Below, piece after piece: positions 19,290 through 54,529 of a stretch of 64,000 bases of DNA. The DNA comes from Diphasiastrum complanatum (lineage: Eukaryota > Streptophyta > Lycopodiopsida > Lycopodiales > Lycopodiaceae). The notes below the pieces were generated by a model, which worked only from the letters and a program-made list of their open reading frames with translations, did not search any database and had not been told where the DNA came from. Numbering within the stretch: position 1 is the stretch's first letter; each line of letters starts with the position of its first letter. The stretch lies in contig CM055103.1 of NCBI GenBank assembly GCA_029204225.1, forward strand, positions 46,946,703 through 47,010,702, read 5' to 3'. The position numbers and the translations under genes were made by a program.

Positions 19290-19975
19290 AAAGATGTCCA
19301 AACTGACTAAGTCCATAAACAGAAAATGCCAAATCATGTCTTGTACAAAATATGAGGTACACTAGACTCCCTATTAAATTCTGATATGGTATCTTCTGCA
19401 TCGTCTATTTGTCCGCATCTGTGTTCAAACAATCATATTTCAACAATCTGGCTTCGAAAATCATTGGGGTTGATTTATCTTTGCAAACGATCATGCTTCT
19501 ACAAATGCTACGAACCTTCTGAAATCATCAAATACTTCAGACTTCAATTTTAGATTTTATATACTAGTCATTCTACTGAAATCATTAATGAATGTTAGAA
19601 AGTATCTTGACCCTGACAGAGAATTGACCTTCATAGATCCATAGACATCCCAATGTACTAGCTCAAAAACATCTTTCGCTCTCCTCCCTTCATGATCGAA
19701 TGGATCTCGATGTTGTTTACATTTCAAACAAGCTTCCCAGAAATCTGAATTGGCACTTGTAACTCTAAGACCATTTACAAGGTCATTTTTGCTCATGTCA
19801 TACAAATTCTTCATATTTAGATGATACATTCACTTGTGCCACAAAGAATTTTCACCTTCAGATGCATTCAATGCACTGTCGTAGTTGTTGACAATTCTTG
19901 CTTGCAGATACAAGTTACATTATCTTATTCCGACAACAGGTAATTTGTTCGATTTGTGATCCACCATTCTGCATG
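19290..19975 (-). pseudogene. pol: Copia J: RT C-terminal and integrase remnants
   Basis: On the minus strand, 19557-19829 reads MYHLNMKNLYDMSKNDLVNG, then SDFWEACLKCKQHRDPF (integrase zinc domain, CX2C) and VHWDVYGSMKVNSLSGSRYF (first integrase Asp). The preceding LWHK-type His block is cut by a TGA. To its left, around 19300-19400, are RT C-terminal blocks (YQNLIGSLVYLIFCTRHDLA). The order on the minus strand thus jumps from integrase start to RT end: an internal deletion. 53660-54301 is a near-identical direct copy with the same deletion. Confidence 0.8.
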
Positions 19976-21179: not shown

Positions 21180-21835
21180 AATGACGGACTGCCACTTGCA
21201 CATGCACATTTGTTGTTCACATGCACATTTCGTTCACGTAAAGGATACTTTGTGCCTATTCTGCCCACTTTTTGAACAAATTAAAAAGCAAAATAGGCAT
21301 ATGTTTTTTTCAAAAGAAAAATTGCTGCTCGTTCTAGCCTACATGTCAAGAGTCAGGCGTCAGGCGCTAGACTGCCATGTGGCAGCATTAGAGTGGTTGG
21401 AAAAAGTCAGACTCCTCATTATGCTTCATAATGAGCATGTAAAAATTTTCAAAGTATCCATTATGCAATGGAAAGCGCTAGGCACAAGCCATTATGCCTG
21501 GTTTGGCTTTCCAAAAAAGTTTAGGCTTGACCCCTTCGGGCTTAGCCTAAAAAAATTATGGAAATCCTTACCAGGCAGAATGGCATGTGCCCGGCCCATT
21601 CCATAGTACGTAATGCATACTTGGTGACTATTCTGCCCATTTTTTGAATAGATTAAAAAACAAAAATGTCATCTATTTTCTTCAAAAAATAATTGGTGCA
21701 CTTTCCAACCTGCGCGTCAAGCGTCAGACTACCACGTGGCAGTTTTTAACTGGTCAAAAAAAGTCAAAGTGCTAATTACTTTTCATAAAAGAAGATTGTT
21801 TATGTGGGAGAAAAATTGACACTCACTCAGTTCAC
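21180..21835. repeat. Foldback repeat family, two tandem units of about 372 bp
   Basis: Unit 1 (from about 21241) and unit 2 (from about 21616) share TATTCTGCCCA followed by TTTTTGAA, and ACTGCCATGTGGCAG or ACTACCACGTGGCAG. Unit 1 contains a palindrome at 21465-21603 with arms around GGCTTTCC/GGAAATCC and an inner TTTAGGC...GCCTAAA stem, and a perfect small stem CTCATTATG/CATAATGAG at 21416-21436. A third member is at 51850-52147. It looks like a non-autonomous foldback or MITE-like family. Confidence 0.65.
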
Positions 21836-32023: not shown

Positions 32024-32783
32024 TAGGGCGACCCTGCTCCAGGCCTCAGATCATGCTCAAATCGATCCAAAAATGAAATTGATCAAGCAAAAACCAGTTT
32101 GGGGAGGCGTGGCCGTAGACAGAGAGGAGCGTGGAGCTCACGCGCGACGAACGAGGCAGTAGCTTGGGGTTTTGAAGTGTCCAGCGGCTTCAGAAGTGTA
32201 GTTCGACGCACCGATCCAAGGAAGTCCACAAGATCATCTCCACAATGATCGACGGACAGGATTAATTGCATCTAGACCACAGAATTGAAACCTATCGTTG
32301 GATTTAACTGAAGTGGGCCCTGAAGAATTAAAGTGTATTTTGGCCTTCAATTTCATTAGAAAATTTCATACTGAAAGTGGAGTTGGGTCCCTTCACAAGT
32401 GAAGAGTGAAGTTTCTTCAAGGTGAAGAAACAGTTCAGTAACAAAGAAAATCCCTATTTTTGGGTCCTTTGCCCATTTTGACCCAAACGAAGGGCACCCA
32501 GACTGTACCTACAAGTACGGTACAACAGAGAAGAGTGATTGCAGCGGAGAAATTGTTCGGAGTGCGCCAAAAGTGATTTCACCATTCCACTGGGCACGTA
32601 GTTGGGAGTTGACAACTGAGTGCATTTCGGAAGGCGACGCCGATTTGGCTTTCAAATTGGTGGGAAAGTGGCAAGTAGCCTGGTAAGGGAAAAAGTGCAG
32701 GTCATTATTTTCAATTTCTGACATCACAGTTGGCCTCGGCATACTGCTTTTAGCCTACAACAGAAGTTTCAAGTAGGTTTGTG

Positions 32784-33560
32784 ATGGCAAACATGGGAGA
32801 GTCCATTTTGAGTGAAAGTAGCAAATCGGACGGGATTTCCAACTATGCAGTGTGGAAATTCAAAATGAAAAACATACTGATGGAGAAAGACTTGTGGGAA
32901 GTCATCACAAGTGATGAGAGAAGGCCGCAAGATGAAGCGGATATCAAAGTGTTTGACAAAAAGATGAGGAAAGCTTTGACCTTCATTAACTTATCAGTGA
33001 AGGATCACATCATTACACACATTTGTGATGCTGTTACACCCAGACAGGCATGGGATGTGCTAAAGGAGCAGTTCGAGACATCAAATCCGTCAAGAATCAT
33101 GTTTCTAAAGTCAAAGCTGAATAGTGCCCGTATGGAACAAGGAGAGCACATTCAGACGTACATGACCAAAATCAAGACAATGAGGGATGAACTGCATTCT
33201 ATTGGTGAGCGCATACGTGATGTGGAGTTAGTGCACAATGCATTGTGTGGCATTGCAGAACCCTATCAGATGTTTGTGAGCGGAATAACATCAAGAGAAA
33301 GATTGCCAACCTTTGATGAGCTCACAGGAATCTTGATGCAGGAAGAGCAATGACGAGAAATGGTGAAAGCTAGACGTCAAAATACTGACGATCAAGCACT
33401 TGCGACATGCCAAAAACAAGGCAAGAGCAAGGGCGAGAAAAAGTCTAAACAACAATATGCCAAGACTCGGGAGGATAGAGATCTTCCAGTAAAACCAAGA
33501 AGAAAGACAAGTGCTTCCATTGTGATAAAAAGGGCCATTGGAAGAGTGAATGTCGCAAAT
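32784..33560 (+). pseudogene. gag: Copia F gag
   Basis: The ATG at 32784 (MANMGESILSESSKSDGISN) starts a Copia gag of the UBN2 type. NYAVWKFKMKNILMEKDLWE is the DUF4219-like start, then AWDVLKEQFETSNPSRIMFL, MEQGEHIQTYMTKIKTMRDE and LPTFDELTGILMQEEQ. A TGA ends the frame at 33353, and the frame then shifts. The zinc knuckle CFHCDKKGHWKSEC (Cys 33512, 33521, 33551; His 33536) is intact but in the frame of the next ORF. The stop fits a CGA to TGA change. Confidence 0.92.
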
Positions 33561-33565
33561 TCCTA

Positions 33566-34135
33566 GTGGAACAAGGCAAAGGGAAACCAAAACAAGCAGG
33601 TAACCTTGTCAATGAGGGTGAGATTGAAGACTCTAGCATCTTCATATCTATGTTGTCATCTAATCAAGATGATCAAGCATGGTATATTGACTCGGGAGCC
33701 ACAAGACACATGACAGGTAACAAGAATTGGTTCAGTAGCTTGAAAGTGTTGGATAATGGAACGTCTGTTTCACAAGCAAATGGTGAGGTGAGCAAGATCA
33801 AGGGGATAGGCACTGTTTCAATCCAACTACCTGATGGCAAAAGCATGATGATCAGGGAGGTACTTTACGTACCAGGTTTGAAGAAAAATCTACTTTCTGT
33901 TGGAGTCATTGCTGATCAAAAGTTGAAAGTAGAATTAGCCCATGATCGTTGCTTTGTGAAAGATGTGAAACAAAAGTTCAAAGTTATTGCGGATGGAGTA
34001 AGGGAGCCCAAAACAAAATTGTATAGGTTGAATGCTACAATCAAGGGAAACATGGACTTGTATCATCCATTCCATCGCAAACTGAGTTGTGGCATAAGAG
34101 GCTTGGTCAGTTGAACTTGGGAAGCCTCAGTTTGA
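33566..34135 (+). pseudogene. pol: Copia F protease and GAG-pre-integrase region
   Basis: AWYIDSGATRHMTGNKNWF carries an intact retropepsin active site. It continues with KGIGTVSIQLPDGKSMMIRE, LYVPGLKKNLLSVGVIADQK and, after a frameshift near 34085, ELWHKRLGQLNLGSLSLMRK, the integrase zinc-binding start. It follows the CCHC knuckle in the same frame. Confidence 0.9.
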
Positions 34136-35148
34136 TGAGAAAATTGGAGATGGTAACATGATTGCCTACCATAGAAGATCACTTGAAATCGATGTGCGAA
34201 TCTTTTGTATATGGGAAGCAGCATCGAGAGAAGTTCAATAAAGGGGGTGTTGCAAGAGCAAAGAACATCCTAGATTTAATCCACACAGATTTATGCGGGC
34301 CTATGAGGACCATGTCCTTAAGTAAAGCCTTCTATTTCATGACCTTTATTGATGATATGTCACGTAAGACGTGGATCTACTTCTTGAAGAAGAAATCAGA
34401 TGCATTTGACAACTTCAAGAGCTTCAAAGCATTGGTCAAAAATCAGACAGGTAGGAAGATCAAAGTCCTAAGATCAGATAGTGGAGGTGAGTACAAGTCT
34501 AATGACTTCAATGATCTTTGTGATCAATGTGAGATTAAAAGACAATTTACGCAAGCTCATACTCCTGCTCTCAATGGTGTAGCTGAGCGCAAGAATTGTA
34601 CGATTGTGGAAAGTGCCGGATCTATGCTAGCTGAGATGAAACTACCAAAAGATTTTTGGTCAGAAGCATGCAGTATGGTAGTCTATCTTCAAAATAGAAG
34701 TCCTACCATTGCCATACCAAAGATTACACCTGAGGAAGCATTCACGAAGAAGAAGCCAAAGGCGAACCACTTGCAAATCTTTGGATGTAAGGCCTTTGTA
34801 CACATTCCTAAGGAAGAGAGACGTAAACTTGATGTAAAAGCTATCAAGTGTATATTCCTAGGATATGATGATCGTGTGAAAGACTATAGATGTTTTGATC
34901 CAGTGGAAAACAAAATCCATGTAAGTCGTGATGTTATCTTTGATGAATCCAAGATGTATGAAGACGAGGATGTTGAGAAGATAGATACATCCAGTGGGAA
35001 AGATGGTATAGTGAGGATACCACCTGATGATGATCTATTCATTGACCTTCCAAGTGATGAAAATCTCAAGATACTACTACTCAATCTCAAGAGACAAGTT
35101 GGAGAGGTAGGGACAAACCTTTTGGTGCAAGAAGGATTGAAGTTGTAG
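34136..35148 (+). pseudogene. pol: Copia F integrase
   Basis: A 328-codon open frame from 34162: CESFVYGKQHREKF (zinc domain end), LDLIHTDLCGPMRTMSLSKA (first Asp), FMTFIDDMSRKTWIYFLKKK, LRSDSGGEYKSNDFNDLCDQ (second Asp) and NGVAERKNCTIVESAGSMLA (Glu), so DDE is intact. The C-terminal domain follows (FGCKAFVHIPKEERRKLDVK, IFLGYDDRVKDYRCFDPV). This is one of the best preserved domains in the window. It is set off from protease by a stop (VT*LPT). Confidence 0.94.
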
Positions 35149-36560
35149 GTGACAAACGCAAGAAGAAGGATATACTGTGGGATACATTTTCACTAGGAAG
35201 CCGATCACCTGACAAGAAGCTCCCTAAGTGGTTTGAGAGATTGTTGGAGAGCCGCGATATGGATGACTTTCCAGGACCATCTAGCCAGGGAGAGCTACAA
35301 AGATCAACAAGAGAGAAGACACAACCTGAAAGGTATGAAGCAAATTATGCTCTCTTATCTAGCATTATTCAAAGCAAAGAACCTTCGACTTATGGTGAAG
35401 CGAAGGATGATGACATTTGGGTCAAGGCCATGGGAGAGGAGATGGAGTCAATTGCTAAGCATAGCACATGGGATTTAGTAGACCCACCAATTGGCAAGAA
35501 ACCCATTGGTTGCAAATGGGTATACAGGACTAAGTATCATGCAGATAGAAGTATAGCAAAGCACAAGGCAAGATTGGTGATCAAAGGGTATGCATAAAGT
35601 AAAGGCATTGACTATGAGTAGACCTTTGCGCTAGTATGCAAGTGGAATACTCTACGTCTACTTGTTTCTTTAGCTTCACATTTTGGTTGGCCTTTGCATT
35701 AGATAGATGTGAAATCTGCTTTTCTAAATGGTGAGTTAGAAGAAGAGTGTTCATGGATCAACCTGAAGGCTTTGTAACGAAGGGACAGGAAAATAAAGTA
35801 TGTCGCTTGAAGAAAGCGCTTTATGGTCTTAAACAAGCACCACCTGCGTGGTATAGCCGGATTGATACCTACTTTCGTTCAAAGGGGATGGTGAGAACAC
35901 ACTCTGATCCAAATCTATATTTCTTATGTTGTGATGATATGGTTGCTTTGATTGCTCTTTATGTTGATGACTTGATTATTATGGGAAATAATCAAGAGAT
36001 GATAGATATGATCAAGAAAAACCTCATGGAACAATTCGAGATGACAGATCTCAACCTGATGCATTATTGCCTTGGAGTAGAGGTGTGGCAAAAAGGACAT
36101 GAAGTGGGTTTAACACAGGTGAAGTATGTCAAAGGGTTGCTGCACAAGTTTAGGTTGCAGGATTGCAAACTAGTAAACACTCCTATTGTACCAGGTAAAA
36201 AGCTTACTAAGCTTGATGAGTCACAGTCATTGGATGCTACACTGTATAGGCAGTTAGTAGGGAGCTTGATTTACCTTACCACGACTAGACCAAATATATG
36301 CTATGTTGTTGGCATTGTAAGTCACTTTATGGTAGCACCTACGGAAACGCATTGGAAGGCAGCTAAACACATTTTGCGTTATGTGAAAGGCACTTCAGAT
36401 TATGGCTTGATTTACAGGAAGCATGATGGTATACCTGAGTTGTGTGGCTACGTGGATGTGGATTGGGGAAGTGACTATGTTGATCGTAGATCCACCACAG
36501 GGTATGTATTTCAGTTTTGTGGTAGTTGTTTTTTTCTGGTCTAGTAAGAAGCAAAGTACA
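35149..36560 (+). pseudogene. pol: Copia F reverse transcriptase
   Basis: The blocks run ESIAKHSTWDLVDPPIGKKP, IGCKWVYRTKYHADRSIAKH and KARLVIKGYA, then stops at 35595, 35619 and 35702, each where CAA or CAG is usual. A frameshift near 35745 leads into FMDQPEGFVTKGQENKVCRL, KKALYGLKQAPPAWYSRID, then LIALYVDDLIIMG with YVDD at 35960-35971 intact. The connection block is LVGSLIYLTTTRPNICYVVG. Most stops look like C-to-T changes. Confidence 0.93.
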
Positions 36561-39329: not shown

Positions 39330-40247
39330 ATGTATCGAGGAAAGCTCTCACACACATACAATGAACACGCACACACACACACACATAGGCGCACACACAC
39401 GCACGTGTGTTCCAAATCTCCCCCCCTCCTCCCCCTATTTTTCTCTTTTTATTGTCTATTTTGCTTTCCTCACCCCATCATCCTCCTTTTTTTTCAACTC
39501 TGCATTTTTTGAGCATGGATAAAAGCTTGTGGGTAATGATTTAGGAGTTAAAGCTAGTGAGTTTGGGCTTGTAGTTAAGCATTTCTGAAAATGGCGGGCC
39601 AAGATAGGGATTTGAAGGATTGAAAAAAAAGAAAAAACCAGTTTAAGGTAGTCAAGAAAATATCTATGTTTATGATTTATGGCTAAAACTTTGGTAATTC
39701 AAAATAAATAAGACAGCCATGTAATGAAGATTATTGGCTAAAGTTTAAAGCTTAACTTCAAACTTCAAGCTTCTAACATTTGAATTCAGAGAAAAGTATT
39801 TGAATTTAGTGAGTGGGAGGGAGGGGTTGGGGAATCTTTTTGGGGCCACCCCTCAATGCACAAAATGTGCAAATGTATGGGGATATGCACTTTCCTCATA
39901 CATGCATCCCTCTTATCATTTTTAGTTAAAAAAAAGCTCATGCATGGGTGAGGGGAGGAGGATGCATGCACCCATACACATGCGCAAAAGTGTACATAAG
40001 TTTTTATATATATATATATATATATTTACAATCATCTCATAGTTGATGATGTTGTATCAAGCAAACCAGCATTCGGAATCAGATGGTCATTGTAATTAAT
40101 CGGCAAACATTTTAGGTGTTATCACATCAATTAGGTTTAAATGGAGAACCCACGAATGATCCTACTGCTAGACTTCTAGCTAACCTTGGTGATGTCGAGA
40201 ACATCCATGAAATTTAACATCTTATGTAAAAACTCAGTTTCTCCACT
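39330..40247. other. No recognised gene
   Basis: Unassigned apart from (CA)n at 39368-39405, a C-rich run at 39420-39435 and (TA)n at about 40008-40026. The phrase AAAACTTTGGTAATTCAAAAT with AAATAAGA occurs at 38950 and 39690, a short dispersed repeat. Confidence 0.5.
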
Positions 40248-41062
40248 TTGCAAGACAAATACTTCCAAAATACGAGCAAAAGATCAGGGTCCTTCAATTT
40301 AAATAACCAAGCTCAGTCATGTCAGGAAGCGACAACGAGAATAAGACATATTTTTCTAATAGAGGCAAGGCAACAACAGAATTTTCTGCATTTACGCTAC
40401 TACAATAGATGTTTTGAGAAATGCTTCAAAGATTTTGTCTCTATGAATTTTGGGCATGTGGTTTCTATGAATACCAACATTGTTAATAACAAGTCTTTAA
40501 TAAACGATTTGAGCAAAGGACTTAATCATATCCCAATTTAAAAATCAAACATAGATGAAGTTGCCACTGAAATCAGGAATGATTAAAATTAGCTAGATTG
40601 TTACCCGTATATCAGACCATTGACAATGAGGCAATTATTAGACATGTCGTACTGTGCAAATCTAATGTTACAAATTTTCTAAAGAAAACCAAATGGCTAC
40701 ATAGACGATGTCTAACTGGTAACAAGTTAAAAGATGCCACATATGAACGTAGTTGGAATACTACAAACTTGTATGTTAATAGAGTTGAAAAAGCTCAACA
40801 TAATCTTGGCTTCATGTGTATTCATTTTGTTAGGAAATTGGCTTTAGAAAGACTTTCTAGTCCAGATTTTGCCCCCTTTCTAGATGAGAAAGATAATACT
40901 ACCAGTAATGCAATGGATGTCATAAAACAAACCTTTACAAGGAACATACTAGAGAATCTACTTGGAAAAGAGGAGTTACCTTTCCTTCTATGTACGTTTA
41001 AAACACATAAGATCTCTTTCAGAACAACATCGTTATGGCTTATGAAAAGAATGACTTCATGA
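40248..41062 (+). pseudogene. Possible Penelope-like or other non-LTR reverse transcriptase, broken
   Basis: Two plus-strand frames (40248-40541 and 40598-41062) separated by stops. The first ends NKSLINDLSKGLNHIPI, like the LxKGLxFxP lead-in of Penelope-like elements, followed by IDEVATEIRND. The second has LGFMCIHFVRKLALERLSSP and ends ELPFLLCTFKTHKISFR, resembling the first RT block (P...K.HK...R) of that group. No catalytic YXDD block is seen: the sequence breaks up after 41062 and runs into a TC microsatellite. No LTR or PBS is near. Other reverse transcriptases or an unrelated protein remain possible. Confidence 0.35.
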
Positions 41063-41235
41063 AAGGGTCAAAGTTATGTGAGATTACTAATAATATCCTC
41101 AATCACAATGTGCCTGGAGTGATGTATGAACTACCAGACAATGCTGATTTTCTCTTGGTAGGCAGTTAGCATTCCCTCTCAGGGGTGCTAACTGCCCCCT
41201 GAGAAACCTTGCTAACTGTGGGTACAGTTGGTGGG

Positions 41236-41238
<3 letters not shown>

Positions 41239-41317
<79 letters not shown>

Positions 41318-41330
41318 AACACACACACAT
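41239..41330. repeat. (TC)n microsatellite followed by (AC)n
   Basis: A pure TC run of about 38 units (41239-41314), then CACAAACACACACACA. The frames it creates are simple-sequence artefacts. Confidence 0.95.
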
Positions 41331-41918
41331 GGGCTCTATTATATAATAGCTACACGACATATACGCTTTAAAACAACATGGAAATGATCCTCCTTTATGA
41401 TACCAAATTGAATAATTTGCTTTACTTTACCAAACTTGGTAATGAGACCCCTTATGAAGTTTTTTTTAGAAAGTCTTGTTGGAGGGAAATTTGCCTTCCT
41501 TTGAACGGCTAGGATCTATTCACATTATGGGGAAACAATTAGAGGGTGGGCATCTTCAAACACTTAGTGCATTCAAAGGTACCGACTTCTTTATATAAAG
41601 GAAGATCACACAAACCTAAATCACCTTCTTCTTTGCCTCTCTCTTTCATGCCTTTCCTTTGCTCTGGCTATGCTTCTCCCACTGCGACCTACTACAGCCT
41701 TGAGGATCAAAGCTTGTGAAGGACATTAGCTGGAAGCATACTACAATGTAAGGTAAGAGTATGAACAGGCTTGAAGCTAAATGATCTTTCAAATACCAAA
41801 GGTTTTTCTGCACTGTATAAGCACTTGATGTTGGAGCTTACTTAGCGTATGATAATGCATGATTACATAGCTTTCTGAATTCAGAAGATACATGGGAATT
41901 TATCACAGTTGGGCGCTG
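41331..41918. other. No recognised gene
   Basis: Unassigned. No domain, LTR end or PBS seen. Confidence 0.4.
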
Positions 41919-43290: not shown

Positions 43291-43699
43291 GTTTGCTTGA
43301 AGGTGGGTTGTTTACCTTGGCTTTGCAATGGACCATTTGTGATGCTCCTTCGGTAGCCTGTGATGCGGTTGCTCATTGGTAACCGCAACTTTGACTTTGC
43401 AGTTGCCTTTGGTGGCTTCGTTGAAGCTGTTTGGCAGGGCCTTGTGGTTGCTCATTGGTTTACGTTGGTGCACAATGCGGTTTGTGGCTGTCTGCCTATG
43501 GCATTTGCCCGTGTATTTCTACATGTTTGTGATCACAAGCTAAAAGAGCTTTTGGGTAGAAACTTGATGTTTCTTCATCCACTTCAAGGCAAATATGTAT
43601 CTCAAGTAAATTGTCCTTTTCTTTGCACTTATCACTTGCCATTTCTATTTTTCCTTTATCAAAGGCTTTATTCCTCTTTCATCTAGTCTCATCAATGGG
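43291..43699. other. No recognised gene
   Basis: A 108-codon plus frame at 43360-43686 (MMRLLIGNRNFDFAVAFGGF...) has no known domain and is partly made of the neighbouring repeat words. It is not called as a gene. Confidence 0.4.
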
Positions 43700-44095
43700 A
43701 GGTGTGCTACACCTTATGTCTTCATCATGTGGTCCATCTTGAGGTTGTGCCATTGTTTCATTTTCAATGAACATGTTGGATAGATCATCACTATCTCTCT
43801 CATCGTGTCCAAAATGTGAACCTCATTAAACATTACATCATGACTATAACAACGATATCCTTTTGTTTGTTCATCATACCCAATAAAAATACATAATGGC
43901 TTCCTCTTTCATTTTACTCCTCTCGCTCTTAGGGATGTGAACATACACTCTATATCCAAACACTTGTAGGCCATCCACTCTCAATTTCTTACCATTGAAT
44001 GTCTCATGAAGGCCAGTCTGCCCTCTGAGTGCCTTCATATGAAGTTTTGAAATTAAAGAACAAAATCCAATGGTCCCTTCAAATTCGACAGTCAC
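43700..44095 (-). pseudogene. pol: Copia integrase C-terminal fragment
   Basis: Minus-strand MKALRGQTGLHETFNGKKLR, VDGLQVFGYRVYVHIPKSER and SKMKEEAIMYFYWV is the Copia integrase C-terminal module (GKKPxVxxLxxFGCxxYxHIPxxxR). After the ORF end it continues YDEQTKGYRCY-SHDVMFNE in sequence near 43800-43870. Nothing else of the element is present. Confidence 0.8.
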
Positions 44096-44876
44096 GCTTG
44101 AACCAAATGTGGTCGTTGATCTCTGGGCCTAGAAATATAATTGTTAGGACTAATCCATAGGCTGAACCATATTCTTTAAGCAGCTATGCACTATAAGCTG
44201 CTACTTCACCACCATTGTTGAACATGCGAATGCTAGAGAGAGAGAGTTACCAAATTTCACCTAGTTCCTCTTGACAAAGCAAGACTGAAATCTTTTGAAG
44301 CCTTTATTCATATTCCAACAAGGTTAAATATAGCTGAAAAGTAAAATATAGTACTGAAAGAGCACCATAAAGCATAATCACGTTCAAGACGTCCAGCTAA
44401 TACCTGCCACCATCCCACAACACAAAACTATATGAGTCAGTACAGTGGGAAAAGACAGGTGTCATAGCTGAGCGTCAGTTGTTATCCATGTCAAGAAGAA
44501 GCCTTACCACTTAGCAACATAGATAGCATTTTAAGATCATAGTCATGTCTTCCCAAATAAAAGAAAGTTTTTTTAGCCATAGGCCAAGCCCTAATATTAC
44601 CGTATCAGGGCTTCTGCCAAGCTGATTAGTTTATGGGTAGTTGGTCGATATCAAGTAATATTATTTTTAAGTAGAGTACGAATAGTTTTAACAGTCTATA
44701 TTCTATTTAGCTAAAAGACCTGGCGTGGACACGTGTGCTAGTGTTAGGAAAAAGCCATGTTGTTCTAACCCAAGTGAGCCTTGTAAAACAAGGTAGGTCA
44801 CACACTACTGTCCATACTTTTGAGCATATCCATGCTTTCCAGTCGTATCTCACCAGAAGTCTAATGTGACACTTAT

Positions 44877-46036
44877 TGTTGCAAGGTTCTTCCCAGTCTA
44901 AGAAGCTCTGCCAAGCAGCCTAACCTCTGAGCTTGAGAAGAACATAAACTAGCCTTTCCTACAATTCTGTTCTGCACATAGGATCACGATGGCTTGTTTT
45001 GCAGTTTTCATTTTAGTATATTCACCCTGCCTGTCAGAGGATGACTTAAAGGCTTTGAACACTTTGTTGTTTATGAATGAGCACTTGCCAATGGAACAAT
45101 TAACTCCGTTATAGGGCAAGCCATGGTGAACAAATTTAGATTTGCGATGCAGCACAGTTGCTCGATTTTCAAGATCCTAAGGGCTATAGCCAAATTTAAG
45201 GAAGCTAATGTACTTGCAAAACCAGAAAACTTAGACTAGCATGCCACATTCCTCATAAAAAAACAAGAAAACTAATTTCTACAAGCATTCAAGAACCGAG
45301 ATGCTCCATCTTCTTGATTCTTGAAGTTTCCAAGAAACTCAAGAAACCAAAACGTAAATGAATTTGCAAGATCTATACCACATTATTGGCTACAAATCTC
45401 TTGGATGCTTGCAACCTACACTAATCCACCAAAACAGAAAGGAAATCTAATCCACAACTAGTAAAGCAAGAAAACTAATCCCACTCTAAAGTCCACAGCC
45501 ACACACAATATGAATGGAAGGGCATGATCATAGGGGCATCACTCAAGAAAACCATCATGATCAAGGAGCTTAGTGTAGCATCAAACTCATGGAAAATCTT
45601 CTTATTAAGCATGGAGTAAATACAATGCAAAAAGATCCTCTTCACAAAGAGGGAGTCTCTTAAATAAACAAGAGAGCTCCTTAGGTGGCATCCTAGTGGC
45701 ATTTCCACATTACACAAATTACAAGTGGAATAATACTCTCCACTAGAGGTCACCATCAAAAGGTGGCTCACTCTACTTTCTGTAAGAGGGGTCTACTTAC
45801 ATTTATTACTTTGCCTAGAAATACTAGTTCCTACATGGTCATTCCATCTTCTGGGATTCACCATGAGGCTTACACAGTTCTTGCTTGTCATTCCTAACTA
45901 GCATTTCTCGGCTCTCATACTCAGCTCTCAGTCTTCATTCGTCTCATCCTCTCAGAGACCTCCTCGGTCTAAGGTATGAGGTGCTCTTGGGTAGCTCTAT
46001 CTGAGTATCTTGGGGATTCGTTAGAATTAGCCAACA
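44877..46036. repeat. Solo LTR with 5-bp target duplication
   Basis: The 1160-bp insert begins TGTTGCAAGG and ends TTAGCCAACA (TGTTG/CAACA inverted ends). It is flanked by CTTAT at 44872-44876 and 46037-46041. The sister repeat unit has the empty site, a single CTTAT at 48476-48480 with matching sequence on both sides. There is no PBS, PPT or coding inside. Solo LTRs arise by recombination between the two LTRs of one element. Confidence 0.93.
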
Positions 46037-46212
46037 CTTATTCGGGTGGGGTTAAGTATTGTCGTGGTTGACTGCTATGAATACGTAGGCATTAGGGCAC
46101 ATTCATACCATACTAATCCATACAACCTATGTACTGTATATGCAGTGACTGGTTCCGTATGGTTATGTTTGGTTCTAAGCAAATTCATGCTATACAAAAC
46201 ACTTGTTCCAAC

Positions 46213-46224
46213 CATGGTATCAGA
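46213..46224 (+). other. Primer-binding-like site in the repeat unit
   Basis: ATGGTATCAGAA follows ACC, close to the plant PBS TGGTATCAGAGC. In the sister copy at 48572 it reads TGGTATACGGAC. It could be a decayed primer site or chance. Confidence 0.45.
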
Positions 46225-47040
46225 ACTTCACTATGGATAGGTATGGTTTATTGTCAATGAGGGATTTCCAATGTTTTTACCAGGTATTAGAGAAAATTCG
46301 TGCCATTCGTACCCTTATGTAAAAACTTCATATCTTACGCATATTCATGCTATCTAAGAATGTTATATTGGAAACCCTACAATTTGGTTTGGGTATGAAT
46401 TATTCAGAAATGGTGTGAAAGAGTTGTTAGATTGGTTTGTAAATATGATTCAAAGGCATATCTTTATACTCATATATACGTCGTTATATATGAAGCAAAA
46501 TGTTGTGACTAGAGGTAGATATTTGAGTAAAACGGAAACAACCATCTCATGAGTGTTACGAGCATGTAATGAAACCATGTTCATGATGTGTGTGGTTTGT
46601 ATATAACCTAGAAATCGTCAAAAGATGTCATACCTGGATGATCGTAGACGTGGTTTCTTGAGAGGAAGCCATGTTATTTCCATGAATAGTTTGTTTGAAC
46701 ACAACAAAAAAGAATAGTCTTTATCTCATAACTTCGTTTAAGAATCAAATAAATGCCTAAACAACTTCAAAAGAGTGTTCAAACCCACTTGTTATAATAT
46801 GTTTCAACAAGTGACGTACCTTTATGGAGACTTAGTAATGCACGGTTTGAATTCGAATTTAAACGAAAGTGGTAGTAGGCCATGGTAACAAAAAATGCTA
46901 CATTACCACAAGGCATAGATGATAATTTAGGATAAAACTCTCTATGAGAAAAGCAAAGCATTTGAAAAGACATGTTGAGATACCATTTGAGTACTAAATT
47001 AAGTAGTAGATCATTGTCCACATAGCATTAGATCCATAAG

Positions 47041-47492
47041 CCTTGTTCTAAACAAACTTGCAAGCTTCCTACTGTTTCGGAAGTAAGTAAACTGGAATTT
47101 CTTCAACCTACTGTCCATCGCTAGGATAGGAGGTATGTCAACCAAAAAAATTTCAAGAAGAAAAATTATTTTTGAGCCTACTGTCCCATCGTTGGACAAT
47201 GGCAACCCCTATTTGGTTTCAACTCCATATTATCTAGCATGTATGTAAGCTACAAATGAGCACCAATCCTTTGGTTTGCATCGCTGCCTGGTAGGCAACA
47301 ACCAATTCATCAAAGTTTGTTGGTAAAGACATTTTGTGGTCCAACTCGCTACCTATGAAGTAGAAATCACCACTTCATAAAGTGAAGGAGATGAGGAATG
47401 GTCCATCGCTGCCTATGAGGCAAATGGATCCATTTTTTTGAAGCAAAAATGTGATGAACTATCCATCGCGGACAACGAGCCATCATAGCAAT
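47041..47492. repeat. Hairpin array, unit copy 1
   Basis: About six hairpins at roughly 60-95 bp spacing. Core words at 47112 (CCATCGCTAGG), 47184 (CCATCGTTGG), 47279 (CATCGCTGCCTGG), 47345 (CTCGCTACC), 47402 (CCATCGCTGCC) and 47462 (CCATCGCGGAC) sit between different complementary arms. Arm pairs include CCTACTGTCC/GGATAGGAGG, CTACTGTCC/GGACAATGG, TTGGTT+TGC/GCA+AACCAA, AATGG+TCCAT/ATGGATCCATT and TGATG/CATCA. A second small stem (TGCCT/AGGCA) follows three cores. No open frame is associated. Confidence 0.75.
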
Positions 47493-49367
47493 AATTCAAC
47501 ATACATTTTGCTTAATGTGAGAAGCTATGAGCAAACATGTCATAAAGCATTAATCTGAGTGTGTAAAGCAACACAAGATGCTTGTATTGAAATGAAATAG
47601 AGAAGACCTCTTACCATGTGGTAGCTTCCAGAGGATGTAAGTATCGTAGGGCACAATCTCAAGAGGAACAAAATGGAGAACCCTTCTTCACAAATTGTAG
47701 TGAAAAACGATAGTCGCAAATCCGTGATATATAGTGGTTTAACACGAGACTTCCTAGAAGGTACTATCTTGCCTTGAGAGTGAAGCAACAAATCCTATTC
47801 CTTCAAGAGAGGGAAAAGGTTTTTTTGAAAAGATATATCATAAAAGAGGGAGAAATTTTGAAAAGATATATTGTAGGTTAAGGGTGATGTTTAGTTTGGA
47901 CCTTATAAACTTGAAGTGTCAAAAGCTAGTTGTTGTTTAGTGGTATGGTAGCATAGCAAGGTGTGAATAAACAAAGAAGCATCCATGAGAGAGAGATACA
48001 AGACTGCACTTAGTTCCTCTTGACGAAGCAAGACTGAAGCTTTTTAAAGCCTTTATTCATAATCCAACAAGGTAAAGTCTAGTTGAAAAGTAAAATATAG
48101 TACTAAAAAGCACCATAAAGCATAACCACTTTCAAGTCGTTTAGCTGAGCCGATAGTGTCTTCCCAATCTGATAGTGTTTTTGGCGATAGGCCAAGTCGT
48201 TATATCACCGTATCAAGGTGAGTGCCATGCTGATCATTACGGTCAGTTGGTCCATATAAGTTCGTTTTTAGTAATAACAGAGTATGAAAAGTTTGAACCA
48301 TTTTTTATTTTCTTAGCCAAAAGTCTTGGTGTGGACGCGTGTGCTGGTATTAGGGCAAATCCATGCCATGCTAACCCGAGTGACCCATACAGAGCAAGGT
48401 ATGTCACGCACCGTTGTCCATACTCCTGAATATATCCATGATTTTCAGTTGTATCCCACCAAATGTCTAATAGCACTTATTAGGGTGAGTTTAAGATTTA
48501 CTATGCTTGATTGTATGATTGTCTCTACGCAAAGTCATGCAGTATAGAAATCATAAATCAACCATGGTATACGGACACCACTTTGGATAGACATAATTAA
48601 TAATGAGTGATATTTTTCCAACGTTTCTACAAGGTATTAGGGCAGATCCGTGCCGTTCTAACCCTTTCATAGAAACTACGTATCTTACGCATATCTGTGC
48701 CATCTAAGACCATTATATTGGAGTCCCCACTGTAAGGGTTATTCTTGACAGAGGTTTTTTAAAGAATCAATTAGTTGCTCGACTTTTTGGATGTAGTATC
48801 TTTTACTTTAGTCATTCAAAAATACAAATTGTTGAAGGTATGACAGAATGCTTCTCCCTTTCTTGTGTGCTTCCTAAAAAAACCTGATAACAAAAGGTCA
48901 TACCTGAATGTTTGTAGATGAGGTATATTGGGGGGCTTCTATTGTTGTTTTTCGTAGAGATTTACTTCTTTATATCATAACGACAAGAGAAAAGTGTTTT
49001 CAGTCCATAGCTATGTTTAAACAATATGTAAAAATGTTTATACAAAGTGTACAGAGTATGCTAAGCTACTTGCTTGTGAAATCTCGGTAGACAGAATACC
49101 TTTGTTTGGAGTACGAAGTCATTTGCTTCTAAAATGAACCAAACTGTGAATGATAACAGGCCATAGTTACGGAACAGTGCTACGTTATCACATAAACTGA
49201 TAAGCATTTAGTATCGTATACTAAGTGTAGGTATGTTAGAGAGAATGCAATGATAGATAGTCCAAAGAGTGTATACATTTACTTAAGAGTTGAGCCAAAA
49301 AGCCATCTTCTATGGATGATATAAAATATGTATACATGAAGCTTCAGAGAATAAAAAGTTTTTTTAG

Positions 49368-49800
49368 CTTGTTGTCCATCGCTGGACAACAAGCAAGTTT
49401 ACTTATAAGTGCATAAAAAGTGATTGCTCCTATCATCCATCGCTGGATAGTAGGAGTGTTGTAAGCAAAGAGCGAGTAGGTACAAATTGTTTGTTGTCCA
49501 TCGCTGGCCAGGTTACACCTCAACCTTAGAATCCATCATTAGCCAAAGGAAGTGTATGCAATCTGTCCATTGCTGGACATGTACAAATTTTCAAGAAGGC
49601 AAAGATAAAGCCTTTCTATTGTTACCCATACTAAGAAGCAAGTAAAGCATTTAGATGAAAATGCGGATAGTTGATTCATTGCTGCCACACAAGTATTTCC
49701 ACAATGGGATGTGAGAAAACAATATGCTACGATCACGGCCAGTGAGGCACGTTTAAAATTTTCTACTAGAAAGCATGATCTATCCATTGCTGGCAGGTTA
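49368..49800. repeat. Hairpin array, unit copy 2
   Basis: Cores at 49376, 49437, 49498, 49531 (CCATCATTAG), 49567 (CCATTGCTGG), 49676, 49734 and 49783 give a period of about 60 bp. At 49368-49393 arms CTTGTTGTCCA and TGGACAACAAG pair perfectly over 11 bp around TCGC. At 49427-49456 arms CTCCTATCATCCA and TGGATAGTAGGAG pair at 11 of 13. At 49564-49579 TGTCCA and TGGACA enclose TTGC. The spacers between cores are AT-rich and unlike each other. Confidence 0.8.
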
Positions 49801-50004
49801 ACATTTTACCATAAAAAGTTCAAACAAAGACCTCCTTTGTTGAGTATACTTAACCATATTTGAGAGCAAACCTACAAAAGCATCATACTGAATGCTACAA
49901 GTATTATAAGAGCGAGCCATTGTAGTAAAATGGTAAATGAAAAAGCACTTACCATAAGAATTCATTTGCCAAATGATGAACTGATAGGGTGCAATTGCAG
50001 TAGC

Positions 50005-50160
<156 letters not shown>

Positions 50161-50471
50161 GAAATCTTAACAGTGTAGTGTAGAATACTCGTCGAAAACT
50201 GCATGCTTCATATTGTCATACAGTGTAGTTTCTAGGAAGGTTTGAGTGGGAGAGGGAAAACAAATTTTCCTCCAAATAGGATCTTAAAATTAAAAAAGTC
50301 TTGTAGTGCCTTTTTGAAACTTTTGGTGGGAAATTCCTCTAGTCAAGTAAAAGCCAATTTGTATGAAAGTTTAGAAGGCTACTTGGACCTTGTATTTTTT
50401 AAGAGGTAATGTGTCAGTTGTTGCCCATTGTTCGATAGCGAAGCAGGGTAAAGGTAAACGAAGGAGCATCC

Positions 50472-50473
<2 letters not shown>

Positions 50474-50549
<76 letters not shown>
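50474..50549. repeat. (GA)n microsatellite ending the repeat unit
   Basis: About 38 GA units directly after GCATCC-AT. The same position in the other copy holds a short GA run (47986-47996), and another short one is at 44232-44241. A polypurine tract at this place may have expanded by slippage. Confidence 0.85.
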
Positions 50550-50551
<2 letters not shown>

Positions 50552-50919
50552 CACTAAATGATAATTATGTTCACTAAGCATATGCGCGGGTAACCATGCA
50601 AGCTAGCTACTAGGTTACATGTGGTCTGTGTGCTAGGTGTATTTATTGCTTGTAGATTGAGTCTTGTAGGCATAGTTCTTGTTAGTTTCTAAGAGTAGTT
50701 AATGGTCTATGTAGGGTTAATGTTATAGGTGTACCATCATGTAGATCCACACTTGGTAGCAATATATTGAAATTCCATGGAAGATAAGGTAATAGAAGTT
50801 TGTTTTCTACTATTCCATAAAATAGGACCTTTATTGAGCAAAAGCAGAAGACTAGTTGTAGACTTCTTTGTATCCACATCCCTTGCATACTTCTATAAGA
50901 CTAATACTATCATATGCAG
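50550..50919. other. No recognised gene
   Basis: Unassigned. The short frame at 50777-50986 runs into the Copia fragment below. Confidence 0.4.
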
Positions 50920-51849: not shown

Positions 51850-52147
51850 AAAATTTCAAAAGTATGAAGCACATTTTATACATGTGTCAGACTACACGTC
51901 AATCCTCGTCAGACTGTGCGTGTCAGACTGCCATGTGGCAATTTTTCATTGGTTCAAAAAACCCACACTGCTGATTATGCTTTGTAAATGGCATGTGGAA
52001 AAGTCAAAGACTCCATTACGCAATGGAAGGAGCCAGGCACAGGCCATTCTGCCCGGTTCGGCTTTCCAAAATAATTTGGGCTCAGCCCGAGCCTAAATTT
52101 TTTTGGAAAGCCGAACCGGGCAGAATGGCCTATGCCCGGCTCCTTCC
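51850..52147. repeat. Foldback repeat family, third member, with 123-bp palindrome
   Basis: 52025-52147 is a near-perfect palindrome. The arms of about 46 bp, GGAAGGAGCC...GGCTTTCCAAA and TTTGGAAAGCC...GGCTCCTTCC, differ at only two places. The inner AATTTGGGCTC / GAGCCTAAATT arms also pair. Upstream, CAGACTGCCATGTGGCA and ATTATGCTTTG-type words match the units at 21180-21835. Confidence 0.9.
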
Positions 52148-52199
52148 ATAATATAAAAAAGCCATCATGCTATGCAGAGGAGGCCAAAAGTGAAAAATT

Positions 52200-53236: not shown

Positions 53237-54301
53237 CTCCCTCTTGAGCGATACACCTTTTTCATCCGATTCGCATCGATTTTCTATGTCTTTCAAATAG
53301 TACTTTTCCAATGGCTTTGTCAGAATATCTACAATCATATCTTCTGATCTAATGAATTCATCATTAACCATATCACCTAGTTCACCACTTTTGAGATTGC
53401 CACATATTTTGCTTCTCATGAAGACTAATCATATGTCTACCTCTTGCAAGTCCAGCTCACTGCAGCTCCACACAGTAGTGGACATCCACCAGTTAACTAT
53501 TGGCTACTGTCATTGCAACTTGCCTAGTTTGCATCGTTGTAGTTTCATAGAGTGAACTCGTGCTTGCTTTCATAGATTAGCCCCAATGTATAAATACATT
53601 TGAGATACTATAAGATCCTTTTCAACATCTTCCAGTGTTGCATTCCAAGATTAGATGAAAACTGACTAAGTCCATAAACAGAAAATGCCAAATCATGTCT
53701 TGTACAAAATATGAGGTACATTAGACTCCCTATTAAATTCTGATATGGTATCTTCTGCATCGTCTATTTGTCTGCATCTGTGTTCGAACAATCATATTTC
53801 GACAATCTGGCTTCGAAAATCATTGGGGTCGATTTATCTTTGCAATCGATCATGCTTCTACAAATGATACGAACCTTCTGAAATCATCAAATACTTCAGA
53901 CTTCAACTTTAGATTTTATATACTAGTCATTCTACTGAAATCATCAATGAATGCTAGAAAGTATCTTGACCCTGAGAGAGAATTGACCTTCATAGATCCA
54001 CAGACATCCCAATGTACTAGCCCTAAAACATCTTTCGCGCTCCTCCCTTCATGATCGAATGGATCTCGATGTTGTTTACATTTCAAACAAGCTTCCCAGA
54101 AATCTGAATTGGCACTTGTAACTCTAAGACCATTTACAAGGTCATTTTTGCTCATGTCATACAAATTCTTCATATTTAGATGATACATTCACTTGTGCCA
54201 CAAAGAATTTTCACCTTCAGATACATTCAATGCACTGTCGTAGTTGTTGACAATTCTTGCTTGCAGTTACAAGTTATATTATCTTATTCCGACAATAGGT
54301 A
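53237..54301 (-). pseudogene. pol: Copia K: RNase H end, RT end and integrase start
   Basis: On the minus strand 53419-53250 reads DMIVDILTKPLEKYYLKDIE, the Copia RNase H end, immediately before the PPT. 53660-54301 repeats Copia J (19290-19960) almost base for base: the YQNLIGSLVYLIFC RT end, then MYHLNMKNLYDMSKNDLVNG, FWEACLKCKQHRDPF and VHWDVCGSMKVNSLSGSRYF of the integrase, with the same deletion between. It diverges from J at about 54301. Confidence 0.82.
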
Positions 54302-54529
54302 ATAATTCAGACAGTATCTTATTCTTCTCAATTTGCTCCTGATCTAAGTCTACAGAGTTAAGAATCTTTGACAATTCACAACTACTTAGATGTATTTCAG
54401 ATAAATTGAAAAATTGGCCTACCAAATAAAGAATAAGCTTCATACTGCGATTCCAAAATTTCCACTACACTAGCAAATGAACTCATCCCAGACGGATGTA
54501 CATATTTGTCTCCAAACAGTATAACTATT

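Follow-up and report, generated by a model that had tools for sequence, protein, structure and literature searches.

Hairpin arrays with matched arms in the terminal repeat of an abundant Diphasiastrum complanatum retroelement

The locus and its hairpin arrays

The window, a 64,000-nt stretch of the Diphasiastrum complanatum genome (contig CM055103.1), is plant-like nuclear DNA in which gypsy- and copia-like frames were recognized by reading. Two sister units carrying arrays of short hairpins lie on its minus strand, and remnants of a copy in the opposite orientation lie on its plus strand. The features are listed by window position, with H1 to H6 denoting hairpins and cores of unit 2.

40089-41011, plus: coding-region remnant of the element (frames upstream of the reverse transcriptase, RT), from the copy in opposite orientation
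41161-41196, plus: hairpin GGCAGTTAGCATTCC/GGGGTGCTAACTGCC between the coding remnant and (CT)n
41240-41499, plus: (CT)n and start of the opposite copy's terminal repeat (41225-41499 matches 50560-50255 inverted)
44238-47996, minus: unit 1, a diverged tandem sister collinear with unit 2 by sequence comparison
47106-47133, minus: unit 1 counterpart of H3, imperfect stem
47178-47204, minus: unit 1 hairpin carrying a single additional base next to the loop
47270-47490, minus: unit 1 cores near 47280, 47342, 47403 and 47463 (47403 by script, the rest by eye)
near 47403, minus: nested hairpin, TGCCTATGAGGCA inside GGTCCAT/ATGGATCC
47987-50549, minus: unit 2, one copy of the ~2.5-kb non-coding terminal repeat, delimited by genome-copy ends
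48052-48057, minus: AATAAA near the 3' end of unit 2, by sequence reading
49302-49322, minus: remnant of hairpin H5, with the loop and part of the stem missing in the window
49367-49394, minus: hairpin H4, 12-bp perfect stem GCTTGTTGTCCA/TGGACAACAAGC, loop GCGA on the minus strand
49427-49456, minus: hairpin H3, whose majority form in copies is the 13-bp stem CTCCTACTGTCCA/TGGACAGTAGGAG
49496-49509, minus: core H6, weak arms; a longer outer stem is predicted in some relatives (L034, L045)
49564-49579, minus: hairpin H2, 6-bp core stem TGTCCA/TGGACA, loop GCAA on the minus strand
49783-49794, minus: core H1, partly decayed
50474-50549, minus: (CT)38 in the RT sense, the 5' boundary of unit 2, a tract of the type that follows the RT frame in genome copies

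In the RT sense, (CT)n marks the 5' side of unit 2, and AATAAA lies close to the 3' side. The same hexamer occupies the equivalent place in unit 1 (44303-44308) and is probably a poly(A) signal. The sister relationship proposed in the preliminary description is borne out by a collinear alignment of 46589-47679 with 48864-50023, which has a score of 181, whereas the best of 50 shuffles reached 62. Similarity extends over ~1.1 kb and then further left in blocks, with extra sequence in unit 1 between 44877 and 46164. Neither the array nor the sister units emerged from a tandem repeat search or a blastn self-comparison (E 1e-6); looser self-comparison settings recovered the units. Tandem Repeats Finder did not report the array, which indicates that it is strongly diverged.

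On the RT strand (window minus) the core is TGTCCA-GCGA-TGGACA, a GNRA-loop hairpin. All five hairpins named in the preliminary description were found in the sequence. The arms described as perfect at 49368-49393 belong to a 12-bp stem spanning 49367-49394 (loop TCGC on the plus strand), those at 49427-49456 pair at 12 of 13 positions with one G-T counted, and 49564-49579 is a perfect 6-bp stem. The two unit 1 examples, 47107-47132 and 47179-47202, are present in imperfect form, with an extra base near the loop and mismatches. H5 reads ACCTTCTA[TTA]TCCA/TGGATAGAAGGT in most aligned copies. Matching arms do not accompany every core: At 49498 and 49784 little pairs beyond the core itself.

The reported recurrence of the core also held, with right-hand spacings of 61, 61, and 69 bp (cores at 49376, 49437, 49498, and 49567); the clearest run in the left unit, at ~47342, 47403, and 47463, has spacings of 61 and 60. 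Four cores with at most one change from TCCAGCGATGGA occur in 49255-49850 (mean 0.0 in 200 dinucleotide shuffles), so their recurrence is nonrandom. Unit 1 (46990-47500) has none at that stringency and three with two changes, where the shuffle maximum was 0. Taken by itself, the 12-bp hairpin is less remarkable, since stems with a score of at least 11 arose in 4 of 15 whole-window shuffles. Folding exceeds that of shuffled sequence modestly, with z -2.25 for 47041-47500 and z -2.09 for 49350-49820, and the energy of each array was equaled or beaten by 2 of 100 shuffles.

Anatomy and class of the element

The hairpin arrays are part of a ~2.5-kb non-coding direct repeat of an abundant multi-copy retroelement. 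In the 1.745-Gb assembly, at least 43 matches to 49350-49820 (40 of 94 candidates scored) and at least 41 to 46950-47520 (40 of 103) were found, window included in both counts; identities ran from 100% down to ~69%, on small contigs and inside large ones. The RT family is likewise large, with at least 141 genome matches (134 of 4904 first-look candidates scored). Locus comparison places the (GA)n/(CT)n bounds of the unit with (GA)n at 50549 and the opposite end near 47987, positions at which ends recur in genome copies (~47986-47997 and 50549).

The unit follows the RT frame at seven loci and precedes the most upstream frame at three, which makes it a terminal direct repeat. The order RT, (CT)n, unit on one strand was observed at L010, L013, L014, L018, L020, L026, and L045, the RT match at L013 being restricted to the first 46 residues of the query. 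At L013, L024, and L026 a gap of 197-210 nt separates the end of the unit from the most upstream frame seen. Among 15 RT-seeded loci (two of which repeat L018 and L026, and two of which are near-duplicates), 14 have a same-strand (CT)n 48-98 nt past the RT match, 11 of them at 67-70 nt; L047 is the sole locus without the tract. The preliminary description had suggested a non-autonomous element, and the element is not merely that, since the unit is the terminal repeat of one that encodes RT. Its transcripts probably run along the window minus strand: Two observations favor the RT strand as the RNA strand, namely that the unit sits next to RT in matching orientation and that AATAAA lies near the unit end. 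In the oppositely oriented copy, no RT match was found within the coding remnant at 40089-41011; sequence like the adjacent hairpin (41161-41196) lies beside (GA)n in L007, L008/L015, L020, and L026.

Five of ten RT-bearing frames scanned matched Pfam RVT_1, four of them below E 0.001; the best match (E 8.3e-7, 29.4 bits) falls just under the cut-off of 29.6. The motifs DISKCYENIP, GIPMGFSCSPTWCN, and YIDD resemble what we take to be the Penelope/telomerase type, and a PDB search with the RT gave no credible match. Direct pseudo-LTRs in tandem or partial-tandem copies, a Penelope-like trait, are present at L026, where one unit precedes the coding region and a partial unit follows it, with another unit in tandem. 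We tentatively class the element as Penelope-like without a detected endonuclease.

A GIY-YIG endonuclease gave no match in 19 element frames from the loci at E up to 1 or 10, an absence that is not final because the frames are decayed and the element was scanned in part. The same partial scan of 19 frames matched no gag, protease, or integrase family, the proteins that with their own type of RT mark LTR retrotransposons; beyond RVT_1 it returned unrelated weak matches only (best E 0.0074). No hammerhead ribozyme was detected at E up to 5 in 43500-50700, and no Rfam family, hammerhead included, reached its gathering score in the window or eight loci. The best weak Rfam match, snoR104 (25 bits vs. 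40, E 0.71), was taken as chance, and a snoRNA identity was rejected.

Several other features were noted in the units. A second internal (GA)n tract lies at 50005-50159 and recurs in L009-L013, L020, and L022; it was not found in L014, L016, L018, L026, or L028. A second short motif, GGTATTAGGGCARATCCRTGCC..CTAACCC, occurs in both units (46088, 46283, 48346, and 48633). At three of these positions it folds, with energies of -8 to -10 kcal/mol; two of the three show an inner stem enclosed by an outer TTAG/CTAA-like one. Splice-donor-like sites are present on the minus strand at 49954, 48906, 47616, and 46636, with no introns demonstrable. At L005/L012, which are one place, the stretch between H4 and the donor-like CAGGTATG site (48905-49367) is missing with a sharp deletion edge.

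Genome copies and arm pairing

For 8 of the 141 RT matches, DNA was retrieved from downstream at the expected distance, in seven cases blind to hairpins. Four of the seven contained cores (eight in L060, seven in L061, five each in L062 and L064), with spacings of 65-72 bp in 15 of 21 intervals, whereas shuffled sequences averaged at most 0.045 cores; L058, L063, and L065 had no core. The eighth stretch, L059, has three cores and extends L045, a locus with a previously recorded hairpin match. Because L060, L061, and L062 belong to a single subfamily (79-96% identity in parts), the blind matches represent two lineages; the RT next to L064 shares 62% identity with the query RT. Between lineages, arrays can still be aligned, at ~59-70% identity over stretches of 80-490 bases. 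Conservation is therefore less deep than RT distance alone suggests, and the notion that spacers of distant lineages no longer align was discarded as wrong. Spacing differs between lineages (61 vs. 69).

GCGA is the commonest loop on the RT strand, with 35 of 90 loops in 26 aligned copies and 17 of 25 among RT-seeded cores; GNRA loops as a class make up 59 of 90 and 20 of the 25 counted. A strict GNRA constraint is ruled out for copies at large, where ACGA, ACAA, and ATGA account for 27 of the 90. Loop variants from TCGC to TTGC (plus strand) would fit decay at methylatable CpG/CHG sites. Each core is predicted to fold as a GNRA-loop hairpin whose outer arms are private but matched.

Arm matching was quantified by exchanging arms between hairpins. 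Across 64 cores sampled at ten sites, namely the two window units plus eight genome loci (three of the loci were hand-picked, and a few instances overlap), mean energy was -13.11 with the own partner vs. -10.44 with swapped arms (z -8.3). The advantage persisted with one locus per subfamily plus unit 1 (30 hairpins, z -6.5) and among 19 non-redundant RT-seeded hairpins (z -4.8). Hiding the five inner bases of the 30 hairpins left z -3.1 (P = 0.002), and hiding eight left a marginal signal (P = 0.049). Swaps limited to order-matched hairpins between lineages gave P = 0.00015 (25 hairpins) and P = 0.001 (15 hairpins). That order is borne out by aligning L059 and L062 with the window array, with the proviso that for L059 a second register aligns almost as well. 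The proposal that arms vary between hairpins while complementarity persists thus stands for the set, also across lineages; in many single hairpins, the own arm is no better than a swapped one. The test is equally strong on the opposite strand and is therefore silent on which strand folds.

Comparison of the same hairpins among copies gave a different picture. The alignment comprises 26 copies (7 of 33 were dropped as near-duplicates) and covers five hairpins with majority stems of 7, 6, 13, 12, and 8+4 bp. The preliminary description had named absent covariation among many copies as grounds for abandoning its view, and covariation here is near null: Pairing holds in 92.3% of cells vs. 92.1% in shuffles (121 of 500 as high), the covariation score was reached by 86 of 500 shuffles, and further pair types by 154 of 500. 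Both-sided changes are mildly elevated (7 pairs vs. 4.3, 16 of 500 shuffles; 12 cells vs. 7.2, 9 of 500). Wobble pairs give no strand signature over the five hairpins (41 G-U and 41 A-C cells). The claim that pairing is kept while sequence changes accordingly holds in the swap test across lineages, whereas aligned copies of the same hairpins show no excess of pairing over shuffles. Stem departures are mostly one-sided C>T/G>A changes, as we would expect of methylated dead transposons. Column identity in the 26 copies was highest in core half-sites (0.916), followed by outer arms (0.834), spacers (0.791), and loops (0.694); a block permutation of the stems gave P = 0.0002.

Readings of the array

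We favor, at slightly less than an even chance, a reading of the array as a putative cis-acting RNA module of the element, carried on the minus-strand transcript as GNRA hairpins with matched arms. Recurrence beside other RTs, arm matching, half-site conservation, the predominance of GCGA loops, and the RT-unit anatomy argue for it. Near-null pairing in aligned copies, the lack of a strand signature, and modest folding weigh against it, as do the marginal arm signal with eight bases hidden, the many single hairpins in which the own arm has no advantage, the three blind stretches without cores, the reduction of the blind matches to two lineages whose arrays still align, and the spacing difference between lineages.

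The strongest competitor, which we consider somewhat unlikely, attributes the arms to mutation and not function: The palindromic core would stall replication, and template switching would copy one arm onto the other. Such a mechanism is described in PMC8794818, where matched stems arise and persist without stepwise compensation. It would explain matched arms as well as an RNA module does, their equal performance on both strands fits it, and so does the lack of a pairing excess in aligned copies. By eye, H4 and H6 share a common 3' flank and have different 5' flanks, as do H1 and H2; this one-sided sharing is what rewriting of one arm predicts. Template switching leaves unexplained why core half-sites are more conserved than spacers. 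Against it also stand the recurrence of the core in arrays of other RT subfamilies and the many imperfect stems, whereas the mechanism can yield perfect ones in a single step. Compared with hairpins of that origin, those here have a shared core, a common loop, and fairly regular spacing across subfamilies.

A DNA-level site is quite improbable. Here the TGTCCA/TGGACA palindrome with its free 4-bp spacer would be a putative target of a dimeric transcription factor in a promoter-like terminal repeat. Its symmetry on both strands, the conserved half-sites flanking four freely varying bases (0.916 vs. 0.694), and the position of the unit, which in L013, L024, and L026 lies ahead of the most upstream frame, agree with such a site. 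Left unaccounted for are the matched outer arms of 6-8 bp, which vary from site to site, and the fact that other subfamilies have GCGA, with its mutable CpG, as their most frequent loop.

An ordinary diverged minisatellite in a transposon end, with hairpins by chance, is very improbable: Regular spacing near 61-72 bp and the two-register alignment of L059 are as tandem origin predicts, and the silence of Tandem Repeats Finder would reflect strong divergence, but own-arm pairing beats swapped pairing at z -4.6 to -8.3 (RT strand, multi-locus sets, no hidden bases), which makes chance hairpins unlikely. The cores themselves probably arose in tandem, which any of the other readings can accommodate.

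Under the cis-acting RNA module, the element may use the hairpins as folded RNA signals, and a repeated module for RNA binding or RT positioning would be the most economical reading. As a repeated module of the element transcript, the array would probably bind the element's own proteins and position RT on the template. Selection would hold stems paired in active copies, and dead copies would decay afterwards, mainly by C>T/G>A. The packaging or dimerization signal raised in the preliminary description is a possible, putative role.

Beyond this, the array could represent an undescribed RNA architecture, which we regard as unlikely: a tandem GNRA-hairpin array with a fixed core, fairly regular spacing, and private, co-evolving arms, in both end repeats. 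The element's own RT or a partner protein would then bind the array in many copies and use it in particle assembly and in starting or switching templates, which would explain solo repeats that begin at (CT)n. Our literature search returned no description of such a hairpin array. Xist A-repeats and roX boxes are repeated lncRNA hairpins with a constant core and variable spacer in several copies. Their layout is alike, with no homology claimed, and the array here lies in a retroelement.

Penelope-like elements offer the closest comparison. Their pseudo-LTRs (pLTRs) are direct non-coding repeats that flank the coding part and occur in tandem and solo form, as outlined in PMC11167929 and PMC3846280; the element here likewise has its coding part between direct non-coding repeats with tandem and solo copies. 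It differs in its ~2.5-kb repeat with a hairpin array and (CT)n, and in that no GIY-YIG or hammerhead was found (scanned frames, window, and eight loci). Lack of a detected endonuclease is shared with the endonuclease-deficient Athena, Coprina, and Selaginella elements, but matches here also lie inside large contigs and not just on small ones. Rotifer Penelopes reportedly have palindromes of 18 and 38 bp at the ends of their pLTRs (PMC3846280). According to PMC11167929, the way in which Penelope-like elements transpose is poorly understood, and the RT of a lizard representative (Anolis Poseidon PAc) starts copying internally in an AC-rich stem-loop of the element RNA. One stem-loop is involved there; here an array of predicted hairpins is present. 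If the element is Penelope-like, a recurring array of simple hairpins next to RT would be a testable binding site in many copies. The arrays also form a natural data set on whether selection or template switching keeps stems.

Elsewhere in the window, a copia-like polyprotein with several long frames, named by reading, spans 32754-36544 on the plus strand. Near-palindromes at 52023-52149 (91% self-inverted) and 21452-21622 (72%) are similar to each other, and 53659-54303 and 19300-19944 are direct copies, 97% identical and 34 kb apart. The top-scoring hairpin of the window is a long one at 726-775, with near-perfect arms of 22 bases.
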